Assembly: GCA_029570205.1 (NCBI GenBank)
Contig: JAKQSI010000036.1
Span: forward strand, 1 to 28,890
Direction of reading: 5' to 3'
Length of the DNA: 28,890 nt
Source: Candidatus Omnitrophota bacterium
Lineage (GTDB): Bacteria; Hinthialibacterota; Hinthialibacteria; Hinthialibacterales; JAKPRU01
Below the pieces are notes generated by a model. The model saw only the letters and a list, made by a program, of their open reading frames with translations, was not told the origin of the DNA and ran no database searches. Below are positions 9,670 to 25,860 of this stretch, piece by piece. The first letter of the stretch is position 1. The number at the start of each line of letters is the position of its first letter. The translations under genes were made by a program, and so were the position numbers.

Positions 9670-11073
9670 TCATCCCCCCCGTTTCCACCTCACGCCGTCC
9701 TTGGTGTCTTCCAGGACAATGCCCTGCGCGGCGAGTTGATCCCGAATCGCGTCCGCCCTGGCCCAGTTTCGATTCTTGCGGGCCTCCTGACGTTCCGCAA
9801 TGAGAGATTCAATTTCCGCGTCCAGGGATTTCTGTTCTTCTTCCAACACCGCCAGCACAGTATCGGTACGCATCAGGATTGCCAGGAAATGCCGCGCGTC
9901 GGCTTTTGTTGCGGCATCCCGGTCCAGGAACCGGTTGGCATCCCGAACGAAATCGAAGACTTCCGCCAGCGCCTGCGGGGTGTTGAGGTCATCATCCATG
10001 TGTTCCTCAAACCCGCGCAATCCCTTCTCCGCAATCGCCCGCGCTTCTTCAGAGAGGGGACCTTCCGGAGCCTTATCCTGGGTCTCGACCAGCCTCCGGC
10101 GGAAATCCAACAACCGTCGCCATGCCTGGTGCGCCGCGTGAAGGCCATCCTCCGTGAGATTCAATTGCACCCGGTAGTACCCGGAAAGAAGAAAATAGCG
10201 GATCGCAAGAGCGGAATGCCCTTTTTGCAGTAAATCCCGCAACGTATAGAAATTCCCCTTGGACTTGGACATCTTCTCCCCTTCAACCATTAGATGCCGC
10301 GAATGAAGCCAGTATTTTACAAACGGTTTCCCCGTGGCGGCTTCGCTCTGGGCGATTTCATTCTCGTGGTGCGGAAAGATATTGTCCTCGCCCCCGCAAT
10401 GGATATCGAACGTATCCCCCAGGTATTTCCGCGACATAGCCGAGCATTCGATATGCCAGCCGGGGCGACCCTCGCCGTATTCCGTCTGCCAGAAATGCTC
10501 CCCTTCTTTCCTGGCTTTCCAGAGAACAAAGTCCCGGGCGTCTTCCTTCTCGTATTCGTCCTGATCGACACGCGCCCCCACTTTTACGGAATCCGGCGTG
10601 ATCCCCGAAAGCGCGCCGTATCGGGGAAAAGTAGAGATTCGGTAATAAATGGAACCTTCGCTCTCATACGTGTGGCCCTTTTCGCGAAGAATCCTGATGA
10701 TTTCCAGCATTTCGGGAATATGATCGGTAGCCTTCGGGTACACTTCTGCGCGCTGAATGCGCAATGTATCCAGATCCTCAAAAAATGCCTCAATGTAAGG
10801 CCGGGTATGCTCAAAAATGGAAATCCCCTTTGATTGCGCGGCCCGAATAATTTTATCTTCCACATCCGTCAGATTCATTACCTGGAACACCCGGTAGCCC
10901 CGGTAAATCAGATACCGACGGAGAATATCTTCGAATATGTATGTCCGGAAATTACCGATGTGCGCGAAATCATACACAGTCGGCCCGCAGGTATACATCC
11001 CCACATTCGGCGGATTGAGAGGATGGAACTCTTCCTTTTTTCCGCCCATCGTATTGGTGAACTGTAAGGCCAT
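9670..11073 (-). CDS. cysS: Cysteinyl-tRNA synthetase
   Basis: This 467-aa class I synthetase charges tRNA-Cys. It has HIGN at 38-41 (HIGH motif) and KMSKS at 267-271. The zinc-site residues correspond to Cys29, Cys210, His235 and Glu239 (Cys28, Cys209, His234 and Glu238 in the E. coli enzyme). The N-terminal segment MYTCGPTVYDFAHIGN is diagnostic, and the C-terminal region has the DALR-type helical domain and the terminal IRDQLAAQGIVLEDTKDGVRW segment. The start ATG has AAGGAG 9 nt upstream. The region in front is packed with hairpin repeats, and I see no T-box on the coding strand. Full length and apparently intact. Confidence 0.98.
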   Translation of the reverse strand: MALQFTNTMGGKKEEFHPLNPPNVGMYTCGPTVYDFAHIGNFRTYIFEDILRRYLIYRGYRVFQVMNLTDVEDKIIRAAQSKGISIFEHTRPYIEAFFEDLDTLRIQRAEVYPKATDHIPEMLEIIRILREKGHTYESEGSIYYRISTFPRYGALSGITPDSVKVGARVDQDEYEKEDARDFVLWKARKEGEHFWQTEYGEGRPGWHIECSAMSRKYLGDTFDIHCGGEDNIFPHHENEIAQSEAATGKPFVKYWLHSRHLMVEGEKMSKSKGNFYTLRDLLQKGHSALAIRYFLLSGYYRVQLNLTEDGLHAAHQAWRRLLDFRRRLVETQDKAPEGPLSEEARAIAEKGLRGFEEHMDDDLNTPQALAEVFDFVRDANRFLDRDAATKADARHFLAILMRTDTVLAVLEEEQKSLDAEIESLIAERQEARKNRNWARADAIRDQLAAQGIVLEDTKDGVRWKRGG

Positions 11074-11170
11074 TCAAAAAACTCCTTATTAGTGTAAACG
11101 AATAGTCTTGGCAAAGATTATCATTGCGAGCGAAGCGCGGCAATCTCGTTGTCTTGTCGGCTCGCCCATC

Positions 11171-11190
11171 GACAGGCACGGAGGCCTGTC
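11171..11190. repeat. Dispersed hairpin repeat, GACAGGC type
   Basis: GACAGGC and GCCTGTC pair perfectly over 7 bp around the loop ACGGAG. It has the same core (AGGC/GCCT) and geometry as the array units but different outer pairs and loop. Confidence 0.7.
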
Positions 11191-11200
11191 CCACCAGTAG

Positions 11201-11220
11201 GCCAGGCGTCTCTGCCTGGC
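11201..11220. repeat. Dispersed hairpin repeat, array-type copy
   Basis: GCCAGGC/GCCTGGC pair around GTCTCT, with flanking CAGTAG. In reverse complement this equals the unit of the tandem array at 28306-28713, including the neighbouring GTAG. It lies 10 nt from the GACAGGC-type copy. Confidence 0.8.
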
Positions 11221-11360
11221 AAAGAAGGGCGGGAAACACGCTTTCTTCACCCCAATCACCGGCCCCACCGGAGCGATGCTCGCGATGACGGAACGGGGAC
11301 GGCCACCGCGAGTGGCATGGGTGGGCTACCGCTGCGCGGTCCAGCCTACCCTGCCCGAAA

Positions 11361-12380
11361 TCACCCCTGTATCTCTACACGCTTGCCGGTTTGGGCGGAC
11401 TTGTACGCGGCAAGAGCTACCACCAATCCCTGTATTCCCGCCTCCAGGCTTTCTTCCGGCTGGATTCCTTTCCGCACGTGACGCAAAAAGTAGTCGATTT
11501 CCACTTCCCACCCGCCGACTGTCGGTTGTTTATCCACAACGCGCCACGATGTTTTTACCGTGCCGTCCGGCGAGGTCCGCCCCCGCAAGACAGAAAGTTC
11601 TTTCAAATAATCAAAGATAATTGTGCCCTTGGTCCCGTAAATCTCTATTCCCGAAAACCCCGGCTTGCTGGTCCAGCCGACTTCAATGTATCCCAGGCAG
11701 TTTTGCTCGAACTCCAGAAGAAGCACCGCGTTGTCTTCCACCGCAATATCCTTAATCAATGTCTTAATAACGGCAGAGACAGCGGTGATGGGACCGATAT
11801 AATAGTGCGCCAGGTCGATCGCGTGAATGCCCATATCCAGCATGGCCCCGCCACCCGCCAAGTCGGGATTGTAAAACCAGTCGCTCATCGCCCAGCCCGG
11901 CTGTGGCCCCTCGTGGGCGAAACGAACGCGAATCATGAACGGTTTCCCGATTTCACCCCTGTCCACGAGTTTCTTCGCTGTTACATTGCCCCGATAAAGA
12001 CGGTGGGTAAACGCTGTCATAAATACAGTCCCGGCTTTATCTCGGGCCTTCTGGATTTTTCGGGCTTCCGTCAGGGTGAGACAGAGCGGCTTCTCGCATA
12101 GAACATGGCAGCCATGCTCCAACGCCAGAACGGCCTGTTCCGAATGGAATCGGTTGGGCGTGCAGATACTTACCACATCCGGTCGCTCGTTCTCAAACAG
12201 CGCTTCCGCCGTGGCGTACGTGCGGGCTGCGCCGAAAATCTTTTCGGCCTCCTTCCGTCTTGTCTCACACGGGTCCGCTGCCGCGATCAACTCACAGGCT
12301 TTGCTCTTCTGGTATCCCGGAAGATGACAGTTTTGCGCAATAGCTCCGCAACCGATTACGGCTGCTTTCAATCTGGCCAT
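11361..12380 (-). CDS. Gfo/Idh/MocA-family oxidoreductase
   Basis: The start is the ATG at 12378-12380, with AGGAGG 8 nt upstream; a longer frame has no ribosome site. The 339-aa product opens with a Rossmann fold (VIGCGAIAQ, residues 8-16), has CEKPL (95-99) with the conserved Lys of the EKP motif, and LDMGIHAIDL (181-190) with candidate catalytic Asp182 and His186. The C-terminal half is the usual open beta-sheet substrate domain. These NAD(P)-dependent enzymes oxidise or reduce sugars, inositols and aminosugars; the exact substrate is not readable. No signal peptide is seen. It is upstream of cysS on the same strand but separated by a repeat-rich spacer, so it is probably its own unit. A 19-bp inverted repeat lies just upstream. 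Confidence 0.92.
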   Translation of the reverse strand: MARLKAAVIGCGAIAQNCHLPGYQKSKACELIAAADPCETRRKEAEKIFGAARTYATAEALFENERPDVVSICTPNRFHSEQAVLALEHGCHVLCEKPLCLTLTEARKIQKARDKAGTVFMTAFTHRLYRGNVTAKKLVDRGEIGKPFMIRVRFAHEGPQPGWAMSDWFYNPDLAGGGAMLDMGIHAIDLAHYYIGPITAVSAVIKTLIKDIAVEDNAVLLLEFEQNCLGYIEVGWTSKPGFSGIEIYGTKGTIIFDYLKELSVLRGRTSPDGTVKTSWRVVDKQPTVGGWEVEIDYFLRHVRKGIQPEESLEAGIQGLVVALAAYKSAQTGKRVEIQG

Positions 12381-14275: not shown

Positions 14276-15049
14276 GTGGAAGCTCAGCTCCAATGGCTTC
14301 ATGCTCTTCAAGCCATCGAGGATCGTCTTCGTGCGCTCCGCGATGGAAGGAAGACGCGTCGTTGCCTCCTCGACATTGCTGCCCTCGAAAAAGAAAGAAT
14401 CCGCCTTTCTCAACAACTTGATCCGAGACTATTGCGTCGATTTGAGATACTTTTGGAGCGTAGACAAGGCAAGGCGATGGCCCCGATTCGTGGGAAATCC
14501 TGCGGAGCCTGCGGTCTGGTTCTTCCCGAACAAACCGTTGTGGATGTGCAGACGATGGAATTCCTTATCTCATGCGAATCCTGCAATCGGTTTTTGTATT
14601 GGGATCACGAAGAAGAGCGTAAACGTGAGGCCCGTATTGCCGCAGAGGTGGCAAGGGCAAAGTCCGAGCAAGCGCAAGGGGTGAAGACCGTCGAACCGGT
14701 TGGCGTGCGCAGGGCAAAAGCGGCCAAACGAGTCGGGGCAAGAATCCCCGTCGGGGAAACACGCCAATCGGAACCGGCAAGTCCTGAAAAACCCGCGGCA
14801 ACTAAGACAAAACCTGCGGCGAAGGGGGGCGTCCCCAAAGAGACAGTCACTGCAAAGAAACCGGTGGATAAAAACAAACCTGCGGCAAAGAAACCGGTAG
14901 TCAAGAAGACGGTCGCAAAGAAAGCGGTTATCAAGAAGCCCTCCGTCAAGAAAAGCGGAGTGAAAGAATCCACTGTGAAAGAATCCCCTCACCGGAAAAG
15001 AACACCCGGCATTTCACGCACACCGAAAAAAAGTTCTGCCAGGAAATGA
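14276..15049 (+). CDS. C4 zinc-ribbon protein (COG1579-like) with histone H1-like tail
   Basis: GTG is the only plausible start after an in-frame stop at 14261; the ribosome site is weak. The 257-aa product has three parts. Residues 1-60 are helical, opening like COG1579 proteins (QLQWLHALQAIEDRLRALRD). Residues 64-110 are a zinc ribbon with CGAC (76-79) and CESC (100-103) ending NRFLYW, as in that family. From about 145 to 257 the chain is a Lys/Ala/Pro/Val-rich tail of repeated KKPVVKK- and KKTVAKK-like units, like bacterial H1/HC1-type DNA-binding tails. Compared with typical COG1579 proteins the central coiled coil is about 100 residues shorter. Nucleic-acid binding is inferred from ribbon plus tail. 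The function of COG1579 proteins is itself unclear. Confidence 0.75.
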   Translation: MEAQLQWLHALQAIEDRLRALRDGRKTRRCLLDIAALEKERIRLSQQLDPRLLRRFEILLERRQGKAMAPIRGKSCGACGLVLPEQTVVDVQTMEFLISCESCNRFLYWDHEEERKREARIAAEVARAKSEQAQGVKTVEPVGVRRAKAAKRVGARIPVGETRQSEPASPEKPAATKTKPAAKGGVPKETVTAKKPVDKNKPAAKKPVVKKTVAKKAVIKKPSVKKSGVKESTVKESPHRKRTPGISRTPKKSSARK

Positions 15050-16295: not shown

Positions 16296-17108
16296 TCACA
16301 CGTATTCCCGCTGGAGGTTTTGGAGCAGATCGTCGGTGAGTCGTTCGACTTTGCGGATTTCGGCGAATTTGTTCAGCAGGTCGTCAACGGTGAGTCGATT
16401 TTTCTCGGCAAGCGGAATATCGTCGATTATTTTTCCCTTGTTCATCATAATGGTTCTGGCGCCGAGGTCGAGGGCCTGCTGCATACTGTGCGTCACCATC
16501 AGAGTAGTAAATCCGCTACGTCCGATGAAACTTTTCGTCAGTTTAATGACTTGTGCGGCGGACTTGGGGTCCAAGGCGGCGGTGTGTTCGTCCAGGAGCA
16601 ACACTTTCGGTTCGCTGATGACGGCCATCAGGAGGGTTAATGCCTGACGCTGGCCGCCGGAGAGCGTTCCGATTAAATGATCCAACCGATTTTCCAACTG
16701 CATTTCCAGTTGAGCCACCGCCTCCCGGTAGGCTCTTCTCCGTTCCCCATTCAGGCCGATTTTGGGTTTTTTGTGGCGACCGCGCAACCAGGCCGTATGG
16801 AGATTCTCGGCAATGGTCATATCCGGCGCGGTTCCCATAAAGGGATTCTGAAACACACGGGAGACAAATTTGACGCGCTGGTAGTCTTTTCTGTAGGTGG
16901 TATCTTGCCCCGCGATTTCTATTTTTCCGGAATCAGGCAGAAAAGTTCCGGCAACGGCATTCAGCAAGGTCGATTTTCCGGACCCGTTTGTCCCGATGAT
17001 GGTAACGAAATCACCGGCATTGACTCTCAGGTCGATTCCACGAAGCGCATACACCTCATTGGCCGTACCGGGATAAAATTTCTTATGAAGATCGGTAATT
17101 GTAATCAT
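16296..17108 (-). CDS. ABC transporter ATPase (TrpZ/COG1101 type)
   Basis: This 270-aa ATPase subunit has Walker A GTNGSGKST (39-47), Q-loop Gln87, signature LSGGQ (149-153), Walker B VLLLDE (169-174) and switch His207. The order and the LHKKFYPGTANEVYALRGI opening match the ATPases that accompany PF04392-type binding proteins and COG4120 permeases. It hydrolyses ATP to drive the importer encoded just upstream; the gap to the permease gene is 6 nt, so it is the last gene of the operon. There is a C-terminal extension of about 30 residues after the core. It is apparently intact. Confidence 0.95.
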   Translation of the reverse strand: MITITDLHKKFYPGTANEVYALRGIDLRVNAGDFVTIIGTNGSGKSTLLNAVAGTFLPDSGKIEIAGQDTTYRKDYQRVKFVSRVFQNPFMGTAPDMTIAENLHTAWLRGRHKKPKIGLNGERRRAYREAVAQLEMQLENRLDHLIGTLSGGQRQALTLLMAVISEPKVLLLDEHTAALDPKSAAQVIKLTKSFIGRSGFTTLMVTHSMQQALDLGARTIMMNKGKIIDDIPLAEKNRLTVDDLLNKFAEIRKVERLTDDLLQNLQREYV

Positions 17109-17114
17109 TCGTCA

Positions 17115-20100
17115 CTACTCTCTTTTTACAACGGCCGCACGGCTCAGGAATTCATCGGTAAGATGGATTCCATACAGGTCTGCGAGCGCCAGGTTGACAG
17201 CCATTGTTTCGGGAATGCAAGCGTTAATCGGGATATCTTTCGGGTGTTCACCGCCCAGGACACGAAGCGCCACACGCGCGGTTTCTCGCCCTACCTGGTA
17301 ATAATCCGCCCCCAGTCCGATAAACGCACCCAGATCGACATCGGACGGACCGTTGGTAAAGAATGGAATCTTGTGCCGTTTCATCAAATCCGCAAGGGAT
17401 TGGGTAGCCAGAAGAACGGTATTATCGCCCGACGTGATATAGATTTCGATGCCCCTGGCGATGAGGGAGTTCGCCGCATCGAGTACGTCGCCGGTTCCGC
17501 TCACATTTGCCTCCAGCAGTTCAAAGCCGTATTGTGCCGCCGCCTCCCGTGCCTTGCAGGTACAGGCTTCGGAGCAGGCCTCGGCGGTGTTCCATATAAT
17601 CCCGATGCGCCTGGCTTTCGGAAACAACTCCCGCATGACTTTGACGGCGGAGCCGACCGGCTGCAGGGTTGCCACGCCGGTGAGCTGCGGGAGATGATCC
17701 TGCGGATTCTGTGCAACTCCCATGCGGAACGGGTCGGTTACCATGCCGAACACATGCGGGATGCGCTGATTCGATTGAGCCAGAACCTGAAGGAGCGGCG
17801 TGCTCAGACTGATAATATAATCATACCGCTGACGAACCAGATCGTTCGCGAGAAGGGTTGCAATGGACATGTCTCCCTGGGCGCTCTTTTCATCCAGTTC
17901 AATGTTGTACTTGTCCATTGCCCCGCTTTCTTTTAACTCATCGCGGATCCCCCGGAGGCCCTCCATGGTAATTCCGTGTTCGCTATAATAGACTAACGCA
18001 ACACGTGTCTTCTCTTTTTTCGTCGGCGTTTCCCCCGTCCCGTTTTTTTGACTGTCGATGATCTTCTGCGCTCTTTCAAGAACGGCAGGGGTAACCGCAA
18101 GGTTCAATCTCCGGGCCACATCCAAATTAACGTACAGAACGGTTTCTTTTGTCTGATAAATGGGGAGACTCGCGGAATGTTGACCGCCCAGGATTTTTGC
18201 CAGGTAATTACCGCCATCATAGCCGGTCTGATAGTAGTCAGGACCTAAAACGGCCACCGCTCCCTGCTCGGCCTGTTCGGCGCTGACGGACAACACCGGG
18301 ATTTTCATTTCATTACCGACCTTTACCAATCCGCCGAATCCGACATCCAGGGTGTTGTCGCCGGGGTTCAGGAGAACTTCCGCTCCCTTGGCCGTCAGGG
18401 ACCGGGCGGCGTCCACAATTTCGGACGGGTTGGTTACCGAGGCTTCGATAATTTCCAGGCCGATTTGTGCGGCATGGTCGCGCGCTTTTTCCAGGACGGC
18501 TTCGCTGTTTGCCTCGGCGGTGTTCCAGGGAATACCCACTCTCTTTCGGTCCGGAAACATCTCGGCTATCAGGTCCAGAACGCTGTCAATCGGAGGGAAG
18601 CACGAAATGCCGGTCATGTTCGGCCAATGGTCGGTCGCGCTCTTTGCCGCGCCGACCCGGTACGGATCGAACACGTATGTAAACACAACGATGGGCTTCT
18701 CCCGCTCTGCGACCAGCTGCACGGCCGATTGGACGCACGGTGTTGAAAGCGGAACAATGATATCGACTTCTCGACGGATAAAATCCTGAATGATCGCGTT
18801 AATCATTGCAAAATCGGCTTGGGCATTCTTGTAAATTAACTCGACATTGTCTCCGTCGAAATAGCCCTGATCTTCGAGGGCTTTGAGTATCCCTTTCTTG
18901 CACAACTCAACAGTGGGTTCCATCCCGAACTGCACAATACCGATCTTCGATTTTCTCTTCACAGCCGCTTCGGGCGCTTTGATAAGGAGAGTAGCCTGCG
19001 ACAACAGTTGCTCGGGGAACTCGATCCCGATTTCTCCGGCAACGGGAAGATTGAGGCCGACAGTCAGTTTACTGTAATGTTCGAAGGGAATATCCCTCGG
19101 GTTCTCGCCTTTCAGGATCCGGTCGACCAGGTGCGCAGCCTGGATACCGCTCTGCGTATAGTCGTATCCGAGCGCCGCAAGCGCGCCGTCTCCGAGGCGC
19201 TCAACATCACTTAGAAAAATAGGGATCTTCCCGGATTTCGCCGCCTTTACCACCGACTCGAATGCGGAGTACACGACATTATCCGGTACAAGAACGAAGG
19301 CATCAATTCCTTTTTGTGTCAGAGACAGGGCGGCTTCGTACACTTCGGCGGAACCGGTAATTGTTGCTTCGAGTAATGTGACATCACTGTACGTGGCGAC
19401 AACTTTCTTCAACTGCTCGACATTGAACACGGAGTTTGCATGTGCCTGATCATAAATGCAGCCGATGTTCAGCGGTTGCGGCATGATCGCGCGGACCATC
19501 TCCATGGTTTTGTCCATAGGAACCGAGCCGTACACGCCGGTGACATTCGGCAGGTGGTCCGTATCGGATTTCCCGGCCTCGATTTTGAACGGATTGGCCA
19601 CGGTTGCAAATACAACGGGCCGATCCTTGATCTTATTGACGGCGATCTGGGTACAGGCTGTCGAGATGGCGACAACGATATCTACGTTCTCGCTCAGGAA
19701 CTTGTCGGCGATGGTGTTCGCCGTGGGAAGATCGTTGTTGGCGTTTTCGACCAGGAGAATGCAGTTCCGACCATTTTTATAGCCGATTGTTGCCATTTCT
19801 TCCAGAAAGCTGTCGCGTGTTACATTGAGGAGACCGTTGTCGCTGACTTGAAATACACCGATTTTGCAAGTTTTTGCGGACGATAGTTCAGTGACAGAAG
19901 AACGATTCTTATATGCAACAATTGCAATCATCGCAAGAAGCGCCGCGGTTCCGGCAACGAGCTGTAATCGTTTTGAAGAGAGGAGGTCGGACAGGCGCGG
20001 CAGGCGTGTTTTCCGCGACTCTCCAGCGGTTACCGTCTTCGAAACAACTAGAGTAATCAAAACAAATACAGCGGTCAGGAGCTTCAAATCAATCGGATTC

Positions 20101-20882
20101 ATTCCCACATACAGGGCAACGGCGATCATCATGCGGAAGACCACGGAACCGACAATGACGCTCAGTGTTTTCACAAACATAGAGGGTGTTCGGAGAATCG
20201 ATTCTCCGATGATGACCCCGGCCAGCCCGATGACTATGGTTCCGATGCCCATCCCGATATCCGCAAAGCCCTGGTACTGGGCGACAAGCCCCCCGGAAAT
20301 GCCCACGAGAGCATTGGCGAATGTGATGCCGAAGATTTTCATCCCATTTACATTCACCCCGGTTGCGGCAGCCATAACCGGGTTATTTCCGGTAACCCGC
20401 ATGGAGATCCCGAAATCGGTTTTGAAAAACAGGGACATCAGAATCCAGAAAGCCAGAAGCCCAATACAGAGTGCAATGCAGGTCCATATTTCTGTCGGCA
20501 AACCGGGATTGATGTTCTCCAGGCAGGTGAGGAAAGTAGTCCGGTTCAGCAGGGGGATGTTGGAGCGGCCCATCACGTGCAGGTTAATGGAATACATGCC
20601 GGTCATCACCAGGATTCCTGCGAGGAGTCCGTTAATACCGAATCGGGTATGAATAATCGCGGTGGCGCACCCGGCGGCGGCTCCGAGCAAACCGGCGGCG
20701 AGAAGGGCGACGAACGGATTGTGCCCCGATACGATCAGGACGGCCGCCATGGCTGCGCCGGCGGCGAAACTCCCGTCGACCGTGATATCCGCGAAATCGT
20801 GTATGCGAAAGGTGATAAACATCCCCATGGTCATAAACGCATACAGAAGGCCTAAGTTGAGCGCGCCGACCCAGAGTTCCAT
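17115..20882 (-). CDS. ABC permease fused to three substrate-binding domains
   Basis: This 1255-aa single chain begins (residues 1-285) with a multi-helix permease of COG4120 type (TrpY-like). A basic linker and one more membrane helix (about 307-324) carry the chain outside. Three PF04392/TrpX-like binding domains follow at about 338-635, 645-940 and 958-1250. Each repeats the same landmarks. A ligand-loop Ser-Thr occurs as ISTACTQ, LSTPCVQ and LSTPLLQ. A P-F/Y-x-x segment occurs as ANPFKI, FDPYRV and TDPFRM. A hinge motif occurs as YDQAHANS, WNTAEANSE and WNTAEACSE, and a late loop as PDNV, GDNT and GDNT. Domain 1 is the most divergent. In known systems the three parts are separate proteins; TrpXYZ of streptococci takes up tryptophan. 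Fusion tethers three receptors to each permease. The gene starts 3 nt after the STAS gene stop. Confidence 0.9.
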   Translation of the reverse strand: MELWVGALNLGLLYAFMTMGMFITFRIHDFADITVDGSFAAGAAMAAVLIVSGHNPFVALLAAGLLGAAAGCATAIIHTRFGINGLLAGILVMTGMYSINLHVMGRSNIPLLNRTTFLTCLENINPGLPTEIWTCIALCIGLLAFWILMSLFFKTDFGISMRVTGNNPVMAAATGVNVNGMKIFGITFANALVGISGGLVAQYQGFADIGMGIGTIVIGLAGVIIGESILRTPSMFVKTLSVIVGSVVFRMMIAVALYVGMNPIDLKLLTAVFVLITLVVSKTVTAGESRKTRLPRLSDLLSSKRLQLVAGTAALLAMIAIVAYKNRSSVTELSSAKTCKIGVFQVSDNGLLNVTRDSFLEEMATIGYKNGRNCILLVENANNDLPTANTIADKFLSENVDIVVAISTACTQIAVNKIKDRPVVFATVANPFKIEAGKSDTDHLPNVTGVYGSVPMDKTMEMVRAIMPQPLNIGCIYDQAHANSVFNVEQLKKVVATYSDVTLLEATITGSAEVYEAALSLTQKGIDAFVLVPDNVVYSAFESVVKAAKSGKIPIFLSDVERLGDGALAALGYDYTQSGIQAAHLVDRILKGENPRDIPFEHYSKLTVGLNLPVAGEIGIEFPEQLLSQATLLIKAPEAAVKRKSKIGIVQFGMEPTVELCKKGILKALEDQGYFDGDNVELIYKNAQADFAMINAIIQDFIRREVDIIVPLSTPCVQSAVQLVAEREKPIVVFTYVFDPYRVGAAKSATDHWPNMTGISCFPPIDSVLDLIAEMFPDRKRVGIPWNTAEANSEAVLEKARDHAAQIGLEIIEASVTNPSEIVDAARSLTAKGAEVLLNPGDNTLDVGFGGLVKVGNEMKIPVLSVSAEQAEQGAVAVLGPDYYQTGYDGGNYLAKILGGQHSASLPIYQTKETVLYVNLDVARRLNLAVTPAVLERAQKIIDSQKNGTGETPTKKEKTRVALVYYSEHGITMEGLRGIRDELKESGAMDKYNIELDEKSAQGDMSIATLLANDLVRQRYDYIISLSTPLLQVLAQSNQRIPHVFGMVTDPFRMGVAQNPQDHLPQLTGVATLQPVGSAVKVMRELFPKARRIGIIWNTAEACSEACTCKAREAAAQYGFELLEANVSGTGDVLDAANSLIARGIEIYITSGDNTVLLATQSLADLMKRHKIPFFTNGPSDVDLGAFIGLGADYYQVGRETARVALRVLGGEHPKDIPINACIPETMAVNLALADLYGIHLTDEFLSRAAVVKRE

Positions 20883-20885
20883 CGT

Positions 20886-22103
20886 CTAGCCTTTCAATTC
20901 GATGATCCCCGCCATGCCGTTCTGAAATCGGGTCTGGCCGAGGATATGTTGAACCTTGTAGACTTCCAGATCCGTCATGACGCGATTCATCTCCTGTTCG
21001 AATTGTTCCAGATTTTTGTTCAGGGCTTCTTTCGCGAATACGGCGCCGTGCAAGTGGAACGGGTGATCTTTCGCGAGGAGTTCCTGCAGCGCGGGAGGTT
21101 CCGCGTTCTTGTCTTTGATGGCGATCCCCACTCCGATCACAACATGGTTGTAATCGGAAGCCTCGACGGGGAAATTGACCCATTCGGCGAAATTAGTCGA
21201 ATCGAAAATCTCCCTGCCGTTCGATGGTTTATTTTCCAGAATGGGGACATTTTTCAGGTGCATTCCCCAAAGTCCTTTACTTTCAGCAAGGAGGACAATT
21301 CCCAGCATATTGGCCTTCGCGATTTCAAAGAATGCGGAGATGAGTTCCGTAAGTTGAATGAGTCGGTCGGGGTGATCAAAAGTCAAGATGTAGTTGTAGG
21401 AACCGTTGAATCCGAATCCGTGAAGGAACTTGTACTCCAGCGAGGAATCTCCCTGCGGGCACAGCATAAAATCGACCGCCGGGCGTTTCACCGCCGGATA
21501 GAAGTAGAAGTTCTTGTTGATGGTAACCGATTCGCCCAGAAACTGTTTGTAGTCATCGAAGTTCTCGCCGATAGTGGCCAGTCCGGTACTGAATGGGATA
21601 TCCTGCGCTTTCATGGTCACGATATCCTGTTCGGTGTATTCGGAAAGCGGGAGTTTGCGTTGCGAACCGATGGGGAGGAGTGTTCCCGGGGATACCTGCC
21701 GCTCGACATATTGGATGGAGATTCCACGGATCTCTTTGGACAGCAGAGAAGGAGCCGGCTTTTCTCCCCGAATAGCGGCGAGAATCCCTTCACGGTTTGC
21801 GAACAATCGAAAGACCTGGAGGAGGCCGCTGAGGGTGAAGATTTCCTGTGTCTGAGGCGAAGCGTTATACAGCAGAATGTCACCGCCGACTTTTTTGAGC
21901 TGTTTCAGGGTATTGATGAAAACGCGAAGGCCGGCGCTGCTGACATAGCTGACTTCATGCAGATCGGCGATCAGTATTCGTTCTCCGTTCAGGATGAGAT
22001 TATCGATCTGTTTCTGGAGATCCGAGCAGGTCATTCCATCAATGCGGCCTCGGATACGGAGGCATTTACATCCGAGTTCCTCTTCAACGGTACAAGTAAG
22101 CAT
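20886..22103 (-). CDS. STAS-domain protein with large C-terminal domain
   Basis: I start at the ATG at 22101-22103 because the STAS domain begins there; the upstream extension has no homology-like features. The product is 405 aa. Residues 1-110 form a STAS domain (anti-sigma-factor-antagonist fold) with VSYVSSAGLR; Ser56 aligns with the phosphorylatable serine of SpoIIAA, though the preceding Asp is Ser55. Residues about 120-405 form a soluble alpha/beta region of unknown function containing DIPFSTGLATIGENFDDYKQ, VDFMLCPQGDSSLEYKFLHG and LGIVLLAESKGLWGMHL. I have an impression of similar regions in other uncharacterised STAS proteins. It is first in an operon with the fused ABC importer (3-nt gap), so it probably regulates that importer, much as MlaB binds its ABC ATPase. 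That role is inferred. No strong ribosome site was seen. Confidence 0.82.
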   Translation of the reverse strand: MLTCTVEEELGCKCLRIRGRIDGMTCSDLQKQIDNLILNGERILIADLHEVSYVSSAGLRVFINTLKQLKKVGGDILLYNASPQTQEIFTLSGLLQVFRLFANREGILAAIRGEKPAPSLLSKEIRGISIQYVERQVSPGTLLPIGSQRKLPLSEYTEQDIVTMKAQDIPFSTGLATIGENFDDYKQFLGESVTINKNFYFYPAVKRPAVDFMLCPQGDSSLEYKFLHGFGFNGSYNYILTFDHPDRLIQLTELISAFFEIAKANMLGIVLLAESKGLWGMHLKNVPILENKPSNGREIFDSTNFAEWVNFPVEASDYNHVVIGVGIAIKDKNAEPPALQELLAKDHPFHLHGAVFAKEALNKNLEQFEQEMNRVMTDLEVYKVQHILGQTRFQNGMAGIIELKG

Positions 22104-22377: not shown

Positions 22378-25300
22378 ATGATGCGATTCTTTTTCCCTGT
22401 ATGCCTGTTGTTGGTGACGATGCCGGTCATTGCCGGTGATCCCATAACCCTTGCGGAGGGAGGATTCATCGCGGCCTGGACGGTGGCGGGACCGTTGCCG
22501 GCTGAGGTGAAGGATTCTGCGGGTGTATCGCATGGAGGCTACTACCACGATTTTCTCTCAGCGGCGGGCGGCGAGAGACACGCGGTCCCGGCGGAGGGAG
22601 ATCGGATTGACTTTGGTTCGGGCAAATCGGTTTTCTGGAAGACCGCTTTGATCAACCCCACTGGGGCTTTGGATTTCATCAGCATTTTCGAAGCGAGCAC
22701 GGACAGCAGCGGAATCGCGTATGCGTTTTCGCCGCTGCATTCCGAAACCGATCAGGATGTTTTGCTGAAAGTCGGCAGCAACGATGGCGTTCAGATTTGG
22801 CTGAACGAAAACCTGGTGCATGACAACCATGTGTCGCGAGGTCTGACTATCGGTGAGGACACGGTTCCCATGTCGTTGAAAAAAGGGACCAACCGGCTGT
22901 TAGCGAAAGTGGAAAATCTGGGCGGTTCCTGGGGGCTGTCCGTGATTGTGGCGGGCAAGGACGATAAGCCGGTGGAAGGAGTCACCACGTTGCTCGCCTC
23001 CGAAAGCGGCTCCATTCAGAACATTTTCTCGATTCAGTGGGTTCCATCTCCCATTGTGATTCGCACACCCGAAGGAGAGCGCCAAGCGCTGACCGCTGAG
23101 ATCACTTCGGGAGGATTGGAGGACGCAACCTGTCGTATTTCCTCCGATGGCTGGCCGAAGGAGAAGGCATTCCATCTGGGCGACATTCCCGTCGGAACCC
23201 ATCCGTTCGAGTTTCATCTTCCCGTAGCGGACAAAGAGATCAAAATTAACGTGAAGTTCCAGTCCAAGACGCACAACAAAGAATGGAAAGACATCGTACT
23301 GGAGCAACCGAAGCATTGGACAGTTTACCTGGTGCAGCATGTCCATACCGATATCGGGTACACGCGCCCACAGACGGAGATTCTTGCGGAACATCTTCGA
23401 TACATTGATTACGCCCTGGATTACTGCGATTTGACAGATGATTACCCCGACGATGCGAAGTTCCGGTGGACCTGTGAGGTTTCCTGGGCGGTTCGGGAAT
23501 ATCTGAAGCGGCGACCGATCGAGCAAGTGGAGCGATTCAAGAAGCGTGTACAGGAAGGCCGGATCGAGATCACCGGCATGTTTCTGAACATGGCCGAGAC
23601 CGCGACGGAGAGTTCGATGGCGGCCTCTTTGCAGCCGTTGCGGGAATTCAAAGATGAATTTGGGATCGAGGTGCGCACCGCGATGCAGAACGATGTGAAC
23701 GGGGCGGCGTGGTGCCTGGTGGATTACTTCAGCGGGATCGGATTGAAATACCTCACCATGGGGATCAATAAGACCCGCTCGCTGCTTCCGTTCGACCTGC
23801 CGACTGCGTTCTGGTGGGAGTCGCCTTCCGGGAAACGGATCATGGCGTTTCGAGCGGAACATTATCACTTGGGGAATGTCTGGAAAATTCACGAAGCGCA
23901 AATCGGCCCGTTCCGAGACGGCCTGATGAGGTACTTGGAGCAGCTGGAGAACAAGGGGTATCCGTTCGACCGCGTGTATGCGCAGTATTCGGGCTACCAA
24001 ACCGATAACTCGCCACCGGCGATGAAAGAGTGCGACCTGATCCGCGAGTGGAACGAGAACTATGTCTGGCCGAGGCTGCGTTCGGCGACAGCGCACGAGT
24101 TTTTCGAATGGATTGAGAGAGAAAAGGGCGAGGAATTGCCGGTGTATCGGGTTGCCTGGCCGGACTGGTGGACGGACGGATTCGGGTCCGCTGTGCGGGA
24201 AACCGCCGAGGCACGTCGCATCCATGTTGCTATGCAGGTCAGCGAGACGGCGATGGCGTTGGCGGCTTTGTTGGGGACGCCGATTTCCCTGGGGACGACC
24301 GAGCGCATTCAGGAGGTCCAGGAGCAACTCCTGTTCTACGATGAGCATACATTCGGAGCCGCCGAGAGTATCGGCGATCCCATGGCGGAAAACAGCATGG
24401 TGCAGTGGGGTGAAAAGTCCTCGTACTGCTGGCAGGCGGTCAAAACGGGCGGACTGTTTCGTGAAGAGGCTTTCGGGGTAATTCAGGAGTATCTTCCCCG
24501 CGCCGATGTCCCCACTGTTGTGGTCTGCAATACGTTGAATTGGAACCGGTCAGGATTGGTGGAGGTTTTCATCGACCACGAGATCGTTCCTCTTCACGAA
24601 CCATGCGGCATCCTTGATGCCGAAACGGGTCGTGAGGTCCCCGCGCAGCAGCTTCGGAATCGCACGGAGGGAAGCTATTGGGCGCTCTGGGTGGAGGATG
24701 TCCCGGCCCTGGGATATAAAGTGTTTCGAATCGAGAAGGGCGGGCAAAAACCCAAACCCGAGCCGCCGACGACCTCTCGCGAAATGGAGAATCAGTTCTA
24801 TCTCGTCGAAGTGGACCCTGATACCGGGAATATCATCCGGCTGTTCGACAAGGAGTTGGGACAGGAATTGGTGGATTCGAATTCACAGTGGAGAATCGGG
24901 CAGATTTTGCATGAGAGCCTTCAAAACCCGGAGCGGCAACTGAAAACCGACAGGTTTACGCGCACTCCCTTGAAAAACGTGAACGTTCAAGAAGGCATAA
25001 ACGAAGAGATCTGGCAGAGCATCCGATTCTCCGGAGATCTGGAAGGTTGCGCCGGGGTGAAAGGGGAATACCGACTTTTCGATACGGCAAAGCGGATCGA
25101 CTTCCATTACAGTATACGGAAAAACCCGATCACAGACCCGGAAGCGGTCTATGTGGCATTTCCATTCCAATTTCCTGACGGGAAATTCATTTACGAGGCG
25201 CAGGGGGGAATAGTGACTCCAGGCGAGAATCAGCTGCCCCGGTCTTCCTCCGATTGGCAAACCGTGCAGAGTTTCATTGTTTTGCGTAACAAAACGGGGC

Positions 25301-25860
25301 AGGTGGTATTCGGCAGCGATGAGATTCCGCTGGTGCAGTTCGGCGATCTCAACCTGGGCAAGTGGCAGGAGATGGTGCAGATCGAGAGACCGCACGTATT
25401 TTCCTGGATTTTGAACAACTATTGGTTCACGAATTTCCGGGCCACCCAGGAGGGCGAGCTGAACTGGTCTTACTATCTGACCTCCACAAAAGAGACGGAT
25501 AACCGATCCGCCGTCCGGTTCGCATGGGGATCGCGGATTCCGTTCCTGGCGCGGGTTTTTCCTGCAAGTAAGGACATCAAGAAGACCCCGGCACCGAGCC
25601 TTTCATGGATTCCCTGGAATGCGCCGAATGTGATCCTGGTGGATGCGCAACCGGCGCGGCACGGGGATGGTGTGATTCTCCATCTGCGTGAAATTGAGGG
25701 CGTGCCATCGACAGTTGATCTGGAGGGGCAAAAAACGGCGATGAAGATCAAGCGGGCCGATGAGGTGAATGTTCTGGAAGAGGTAGTGCGGAAGAAAGTT
25801 CGTTCGGTGTCGTTTGAGCCGTTTGAGGTAAAGTTTGTCCGGTTGTTGGCGCGGGGGTGA
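22378..25860 (+). CDS. Secreted GH38-family alpha-mannosidase-like enzyme
   Basis: This 1160-aa protein has a signal peptide (1-19, ending VIAG). An N-terminal region (about 20-200) resembles the sugar-binding sandwich of PA14-like domains (LLKVGSNDGVQIWLNENLV). A linker domain follows, then the GH38 catalytic domain from about 312. Zinc ligands are in QHVHTDIGY (His321/His323 region, Asp325), and the nucleophile is Asp439 in MQNDVNGAAW. The later beta-sandwich domains (about 680-1155) are the usual C-terminal half. GH38 enzymes are retaining alpha-mannosidases. The QNDVNG form around the nucleophile differs from the QIDPFGHS of well-studied Golgi/lysosomal enzymes, so the exact linkage or sugar is uncertain. 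It is preceded by its own promoter and ribosome site. Likely role is extracellular or periplasmic degradation of mannose-containing glycans. Confidence 0.88.
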   Translation: MMRFFFPVCLLLVTMPVIAGDPITLAEGGFIAAWTVAGPLPAEVKDSAGVSHGGYYHDFLSAAGGERHAVPAEGDRIDFGSGKSVFWKTALINPTGALDFISIFEASTDSSGIAYAFSPLHSETDQDVLLKVGSNDGVQIWLNENLVHDNHVSRGLTIGEDTVPMSLKKGTNRLLAKVENLGGSWGLSVIVAGKDDKPVEGVTTLLASESGSIQNIFSIQWVPSPIVIRTPEGERQALTAEITSGGLEDATCRISSDGWPKEKAFHLGDIPVGTHPFEFHLPVADKEIKINVKFQSKTHNKEWKDIVLEQPKHWTVYLVQHVHTDIGYTRPQTEILAEHLRYIDYALDYCDLTDDYPDDAKFRWTCEVSWAVREYLKRRPIEQVERFKKRVQEGRIEITGMFLNMAETATESSMAASLQPLREFKDEFGIEVRTAMQNDVNGAAWCLVDYFSGIGLKYLTMGINKTRSLLPFDLPTAFWWESPSGKRIMAFRAEHYHLGNVWKIHEAQIGPFRDGLMRYLEQLENKGYPFDRVYAQYSGYQTDNSPPAMKECDLIREWNENYVWPRLRSATAHEFFEWIEREKGEELPVYRVAWPDWWTDGFGSAVRETAEARRIHVAMQVSETAMALAALLGTPISLGTTERIQEVQEQLLFYDEHTFGAAESIGDPMAENSMVQWGEKSSYCWQAVKTGGLFREEAFGVIQEYLPRADVPTVVVCNTLNWNRSGLVEVFIDHEIVPLHEPCGILDAETGREVPAQQLRNRTEGSYWALWVEDVPALGYKVFRIEKGGQKPKPEPPTTSREMENQFYLVEVDPDTGNIIRLFDKELGQELVDSNSQWRIGQILHESLQNPERQLKTDRFTRTPLKNVNVQEGINEEIWQSIRFSGDLEGCAGVKGEYRLFDTAKRIDFHYSIRKNPITDPEAVYVAFPFQFPDGKFIYEAQGGIVTPGENQLPRSSSDWQTVQSFIVLRNKTGQVVFGSDEIPLVQFGDLNLGKWQEMVQIERPHVFSWILNNYWFTNFRATQEGELNWSYYLTSTKETDNRSAVRFAWGSRIPFLARVFPASKDIKKTPAPSLSWIPWNAPNVILVDAQPARHGDGVILHLREIEGVPSTVDLEGQKTAMKIKRADEVNVLEEVVRKKVRSVSFEPFEVKFVRLLARG

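Follow-up and report, generated by a model that had tools for sequence, protein, structure and literature searches.

The window analysed here, 28,890 nt of contig JAKQSI010000036.1 from a Candidatus Omnitrophota bacterium, contains an operon in which a STAS protein is encoded together with an ABC importer whose receptors are fused to its permease, and this STAS protein is most likely a regulatory subunit of the importer. Since the pairing recurs, often beside genes for a switch kinase and a switch phosphatase, uptake is probably switched directly at the transporter. According to the open reading frames of the window, the three genes lie on the minus strand in the order STAS protein, permease-receptor fusion, ATPase, with the following features:

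20886..22103, minus strand: STAS protein, 405 aa (ATG at 22103, stop at 20886)
21768..22103, minus strand: STAS domain of the SpoIIAA/RsbV type, residues 1-112 (PF01740 1e-18; TIGR00377 65.9 bits)
20889..21767, minus strand: second domain of the STAS protein, residues ~120-405, with a predicted AF0104/ALDC/Ptd012-like fold (ALDC, alpha-acetolactate decarboxylase)
17115..20882, minus strand: permease-receptor fusion, 1255 aa, consisting of a BPD_transp_2/COG4120-type transmembrane domain (TMD), an extra transmembrane (TM) helix and three tandem ABC_sub_bind domains
20013..20882, minus strand: transmembrane permease domain, residues 1-290, with the anchoring TM helix behind it at residues 306-324
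18951..19880, minus strand: receptor domain 1 (membrane-proximal), Asp/Tyr at the CD0873 Glu263/Tyr279 positions
18060..18980, minus strand: receptor domain 2, specificity positions Ser/Tyr (Asp/Tyr in other phyla)
17118..18020, minus strand: receptor domain 3 (distal), Gly/Tyr here, varying across phyla
16296..17108, minus strand: ABC ATPase, COG1101-type, 270 aa (PF00005 3.8e-29)
16299..16370, minus strand: C-terminal tail of the ATPase (..RKVERLTDDLLQNLQREYV), kept only in STAS-linked ATPases

The intergenic gaps measure 3 nt between the STAS and permease genes (tag-acg-atg) and 6 nt between the permease and ATPase genes (tag-tgacga-atg). Pfam matches along the operon are STAS (1e-18), BPD_transp_2 (9e-23), three ABC_sub_bind domains (2.6e-156 in sum) and ABC_tran (4e-29), and the combination of a BPD_transp_2 permease, an ABC ATPase and an ABC_sub_bind receptor in one operon identifies an ABC importer with PF04392 receptors. 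Sequence and Pfam together confirm what a sequence-only reading of the window had described, namely three genes with these gaps for a STAS protein, a permease carrying its own receptors and an ATPase. The domains named in its protein descriptions were correct but the descriptions were incomplete, as they mentioned neither that the receptors are three in tandem nor that the STAS protein has a second domain of ~290 aa; the ATPase tail and the partner-switching surroundings had likewise escaped that reading. Both flanking genes are oriented opposite to the operon: upstream lies, divergently, a large GH38 alpha-mannosidase-like gene (22378-25860), and downstream a gene for an FG-GAP repeat protein, the stop codon of which is 3 nt from that of the ATPase gene. 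Promoter and terminator scans gave matches at chance level only. The operon is real: an assembly artefact, for which the same reading had allowed, is rejected because independent genomes carry the same genes in the same order at 37-94% identity.

The order STAS gene, fused permease, ATPase recurs in contigs labelled Omnitrophota, Aminicenantes, Thermodesulfobacteriota/deltaproteobacteria, KSB1 and Delongbacteria; it is an old operon rather than a local one, and the STAS/importer pairing is present in at least five bacterial phyla. A set of 297 Desulfobacterota genomes was searched separately with the second domain of the STAS protein and with the permease domain. A fused permease was found in 12 of the 297, and in 12/12 the STAS gene lies immediately upstream on the same strand, which bears out the view that it belongs to the transporter. 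Among the Desulfobacterota genomes with an unfused permease only, 2/28 (G283 and G293) have a STAS relative, divergent in sequence and also immediately upstream, and the difference in linkage between the two groups of genomes is significant (Fisher p 1.6e-8). The expected co-occurrence of the STAS gene with COG4120/COG1101 genes thus holds for the fused type but not for most of the unfused TrpXYZ-type relatives. In a second sample of 386 genomes spread over the bacteria, the STAS gene is at hand for four of the five fused permeases (2 kb away in G001) and the fifth (G002) runs off the end of its contig; among the unfused permeases of this sample only G590 has a STAS relative, which is divergent. 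Only one named locus, L047, lacks an adjacent STAS gene, and there the gene is on another contig of the same genome. The STAS protein is present in G362, with no permease match in that genome. Additional genes are found within some of the operons. In a close relative of the window, L057 (G001:C767), a 641-aa gene (9900-11822) stands between the STAS gene and the permease, and L114 (6873-10084), L116 (4130-7326) and L117 (5168-10912) have two unknown genes and a ParA/MinD-like protein between permease and ATPase, accompanied in L117 by TPR repeats.

Alignment revealed a C-terminal tail, ..RKxERLTDDxLxxLRREY plus one residue, that is common to the STAS-linked ATPases and missing from the STAS-less ones. 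The penultimate residue is a Tyr in 24/24 STAS-linked against 0/36 STAS-less ATPases; in L043 the tail is a few residues longer, the penultimate Tyr is incidental and the REYL motif is present. The tail as a mere companion of the receptor fusion was rejected: three STAS-linked systems with an unfused permease (L121, L122 and L195) bear it, and its presence thus goes with the STAS gene rather than with the fusion. In an ATPase tree built without the tail, the STAS-linked ATPases form one or two clades separate from the other ATPases, and the tail is therefore a shared derived trait rather than a repeated independent gain. Tail and linkage could reflect shared ancestry instead of repeated selection, and the tail does not count as independent evidence.

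A STAS protein linked to an ABC ATPase is known from MlaFEDB of E. coli (MlaB and MlaF, respectively). MlaF and the present ATPase both have a conserved C-terminal tail containing a Tyr, an analogy by which no homology of the tail sequences is claimed; in MlaFB the tail helps to bind the STAS protein, and the tail described here is specific to STAS-linked ATPases. Both STAS proteins have a Ser or Thr at the STAS phospho-site. Unlike the present importer, Mla handles phospholipids with an MlaE/MCE-type permease, no kinase or phosphatase is known for it, and MlaB is a minimal STAS domain whereas the present protein has a second domain. The analogy with MlaB that had been drawn from the window is strengthened by the STAS-linked ATPase tail and by the kinase and phosphatase genes beside related operons, but the STAS domain itself is no MlaB, scoring 17.9 bits, far below the MlaB model cut-off of 90.

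Instead, the domain scores above the cut-off of the anti-sigma factor antagonist family TIGR00377 (65.9 bits, cut-off 53.45), and its predicted structure matches TM1081 and SpoIIAA with Z 18-19. Ser56 (..YVSSAGLR..) is invariant in 11/11 STAS protein homologues and occupies the position equivalent to the phosphorylated serines of SpoIIAA (Ser58) and RsbV (Ser56); score and conserved phospho-serine position together place the domain in the SpoIIAA/RsbV STAS family. An invariant Ser in a SpoIIAA-like STAS domain likens the system to the partner-switching systems SpoIIAA/SpoIIAB/SpoIIE and RsbV/RsbW/RsbU. The known targets of these are sigma factors, whereas here the STAS gene stands in a transporter operon and its product has a second domain.

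In related operons, though not in that of the window, the likeness to partner switching extends to the gene neighbourhood. Around STAS-linked operons in several lineages, genes for RsbW-like HATPases, small STAS proteins and SpoIIE-type PP2C phosphatases are found; several of the phosphatases carry a dCache-HAMP sensor part, with an NMT1-type receptor gene beside them. Taking the background expectation from whole-genome counts and a neighbourhood of about 5 kb in 26 genomes, SpoIIE genes occur near the operon in 7/26 genomes (0.6 expected, p 1e-6) and, with close kin collapsed, in 5/23 (p 9e-5). For RsbW-like HATPase kinases the enrichment is modest (5/26 versus 1.5 expected, p 0.015), and 17/26 genomes have neither kinase nor phosphatase nearby. 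A blast with the neighbour genes found none of them beside 18 unfused control loci; as its seeds came partly from linked loci, the family counts are the fairer test. G107 and G283 have STAS, kinase and PP2C genes all beside the operon, and G098 has the complete set spread over two contig ends that look contiguous. In L053 a kinase fused to a GNAT domain is encoded directly upstream of the STAS gene, and chemoreceptor genes adjoin these STAS/kinase genes. The window's own operon has no kinase or phosphatase gene adjacent to it. Its genome, counted as a whole or away from the operon, has 5 SpoIIE, 16 HATPase and 18 STAS matches and encodes a dCache-PP2C that is 38% identical to that of the operon of G008. 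The neighbouring kinases and phosphatases could serve the adjacent small STAS proteins rather than the STAS protein of the importer.

Further genes of this kind were observed at individual loci. GNAT-like acetyltransferase domains are encoded beside the STAS gene in L132 (1995-3947), L053 (1077-2588) and L126 (9554-10600), in two of the three fused to or adjoining an RsbW-like HATPase. L123 (5013-9433) has two chemoreceptor (MCP) genes beside small STAS, kinase and STAS-transporter genes, and in L114, L116 and L117 a SpoIIE PP2C gene follows the ATPase.

As for the receptors, a hydropathy scan locates the extra TM helix at 306-324, following the permease domain and a positively charged stretch, and a helix there would be a simple means of bringing the receptors to the other side of the membrane. 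Apart from the three fused receptor domains, PF04392 has no match in the genome (assembly 93% complete), and no free receptor of the family was found. Each fused domain can be aligned over its full length with 3lkv, 6hni (CD0873) and 3lft, the ligands of which are Phe, Tyr and Trp, respectively (PMC6816091), and this homology backs the earlier suggestion of aromatic amino-acid-type receptors. Two receptor positions, Glu263 and Tyr279 in CD0873, are tied to specificity (PMC6816091). Domain 1 has an Asp at the former and a Tyr at the latter in every fused permease examined, domain 2 has mostly Asp/Tyr with Ser/Tyr within the window's genus, and in domain 3 these positions are variable between phyla. 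The Gln of the Trp binder (SP1069 Gln284) is found in none of the three domains, which have a Tyr there as in the Tyr and Phe binders (PMC6816091). At the level of sequence, the membrane-proximal receptor appears conserved and the distal ones more variable. The predicted ligand of domain 1 is tyrosine or a similar polar aromatic compound, and as a guess at class level the substrate of the importer may be an aromatic or similar amino acid.

TrpXYZ and the CD0873-type importers of C. difficile (NF041285, PF04392) share with the present system the receptor family, the COG4120 permease and the COG1101 type of ATPase; in the systems described so far the receptor is a single, separate protein, and a STAS gene has not been reported with them (PMC9382623, PMC6816091). 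Here, in contrast, three receptors are fused in tandem, each at 166-184 bits against the TrpX cut-off of 390. The TrpX equivalog (NF041285) was rejected on these single-domain scores (177.9, 183.7 and 166.0 bits), the whole fusion protein reaching 525.7 bits because the three domain scores add up. Receptors fused to the permease, with tandem domains of differing specificity, are known from GlnPQ and OpuA, which differ in having other permease and receptor families and, in GlnP, N-terminal receptor domains. GlnPQ has two receptor domains per subunit (PMC8025302), and the account consulted mentions no STAS partner.

By locus, the sets of receptor domains are 1+2+3, 1+3, 2+3, 2+3+3 and 1 alone, and there are two to four receptors per chain in these importers. 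The unfused systems of G283 and G293 have three or four receptors as a separate protein. That uptake would not depend on a free periplasmic receptor, as had been proposed, is reasonable for the window, but the Delongbacteria locus and one KSB1 locus have an extra free receptor gene besides the fused receptors. Separate proteins of three and four tandem ABC_sub_bind domains are encoded in L121 (5343-8333) and L122 (10452-14219), respectively; the permeases adjacent to them are unfused and have a divergent STAS partner.

The second domain of the STAS protein has no Pfam match in any of the 11 homologues, a PDB sequence search with the homologue profile gave nothing significant, and comparison with an ALDC profile built here yielded a non-significant hhalign probability of 0.2%. 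AlphaFold2 models have a mean pLDDT of 84 for the whole STAS protein and 76 for the second domain alone. The whole-protein model gives Z 16-18 to ALDC and 14.9 to PTD012; that of the domain alone gives Z 13-14 to ALDC, 11.4 to PTD012 and 9-11 to PPC/AF0104, with the next unrelated chain at 4.6. These models predict an AF0104/ALDC/Ptd012-like fold for the ~290 aa. Because the sequence and profile searches gave nothing significant, the tie to ALDC is one of predicted fold only: to the ALDC, PTD012 and PPC (AF0104) proteins (Z 13-18, 11-15 and 9-11) the domain has 9-14% identity and no profile match, and its zinc triad is incomplete. Residues E191, H350 and H352 are invariant among the homologues and might, as a working hypothesis, be candidate remnants of a metal site, corresponding to the active-site Glu and two of the three zinc His of ALDC. 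The HxH is kept and the third zinc His has no counterpart in the aligned stretch. Given the missing profile match and the incomplete His triad, the domain is not assigned to the acetolactate decarboxylases (PF03306).

Our reading of the operon is that of a TrpXYZ-like importer with receptors fused to the permease and with the STAS protein as its dedicated, phospho-switched cytoplasmic regulatory subunit, to which we give slightly less than an even chance. The analysis shows the anatomy of the operon, its conserved linkage, the tail, the invariant serine, the predicted folds and the switch enzymes encoded nearby in related genomes, and we infer docking of the STAS protein on the ATPase, phosphorylation of Ser56, metabolite sensing, the ligand and the direction of control. 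By way of the extra TM helix, each channel subunit would hold three tethered receptors on the outer side of the membrane, their specificities differing in part, while the STAS domain would dock on the ATPase as MlaB does on MlaF, aided by the conserved C-terminal tail. Ser56 would be the switch: its phosphorylation by an RsbW-type kinase would break the contact between STAS domain and ATPase, and a PP2C phosphatase, dCache- or otherwise sensor-linked, would restore it. In this manner outside signals could set transport activity through the action of kinase and phosphatase on Ser56, and the ALDC-fold domain may sense a cytoplasmic metabolite and tune the switch. This full mechanism, an importer gated by partner switching in which a phosphorylatable STAS subunit with a metabolite-sensing domain sits on the ATPase and is switched by a kinase of the RsbW type and a PP2C linked to a sensor, is put forward tentatively.

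The linkage of the STAS gene and the ATPase tail would also fit a constitutive, MlaB-like subunit that binds and stabilises the ATPase with no phospho-switch, the kinases and phosphatases nearby acting on other STAS proteins. Most loci are indeed without adjacent switch enzymes, and MlaB is needed for the stability of MlaF with no demonstrated phosphorylation (PMC7367683). Such a constitutive role is nevertheless doubtful, as the STAS domain falls in the phosphorylatable anti-sigma-antagonist family (TIGR00377) and not in MlaB, Ser56 is invariant, and switch enzymes are enriched, with the kinase gene of L053 directly upstream of the STAS gene. Signals might also flow in reverse, the transporter being a sensor and the STAS protein passing its occupancy or flux to a partner-switching network for transcription or behaviour. 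STAS proteins usually act on kinases, and the partner-switching and dCache-PP2C neighbours, the NMT1-type receptors next to a dCache-PP2C gene, the chemoreceptors by the STAS/kinase genes of L053 and the modular variation of receptor number and type are all in line with this. We consider it unlikely, since the ATPase catalytic motifs and the TMD are fully conserved, which suggests real transport, and since conservation of the ATPase tail points to the ATPase as the target, yet is compatible with sensing. That the second domain acts on the imported compound, as an enzyme or by otherwise handling the metabolite, and that the operon is a matter of shared expression only, as the predicted ALDC/PTD012 fold and the plausible active-site register of the invariant E191, H350 and H352 might suggest, is improbable, since the aligned stretch offers no equivalent of the third zinc His, comparison of sequence profiles gave no match to ALDC, and the phosphorylatable STAS domain and the ATPase tail would be left unexplained.

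Returning to the phospho-switched importer, each of its elements is known alone: a STAS protein on an ABC ATPase (Mla), tethered tandem receptors (GlnPQ), the receptors themselves (TrpX, CD0873) and partner switching (SpoIIA, Rsb). A search limited to freely available papers returned no report of a STAS gene with COG4120/COG1101 genes, of these elements combined or of a STAS-fused acetolactate-decarboxylase-fold domain. MlaFB is, according to its authors, the only STAS-ABC pair with a structure, and they raised the questions of what might control an active STAS subunit and of whether regulation of this kind is more widespread (PMC7367683). The importer family described here adds another transporter, unrelated to the first, that has a conserved STAS partner and an ATPase tail to match; in several lineages kinase and phosphatase genes adjoin it, so that the question of STAS control can be put to the test. 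The family also includes importers whose chains carry two to four receptors each, together with a STAS-fused domain family not described before. If true, the mechanism would amount to direct post-translational gating of nutrient uptake by partner switching in several phyla.

Proteins with a STAS and a second domain of this type may pair with other transporters too. In L055 (G008:C155, 4927-8704) a paralogous protein of this architecture (445 aa, about 24% identical) is encoded, and between its gene and a second small STAS gene lies one that by eye resembles a Na/Pi cotransporter. Elsewhere in the window, positions 14276-15049 encode a protein that combines a C4 zinc ribbon with a long tail rich in Lys, Pro and Ala, as in histone-H1-like proteins.
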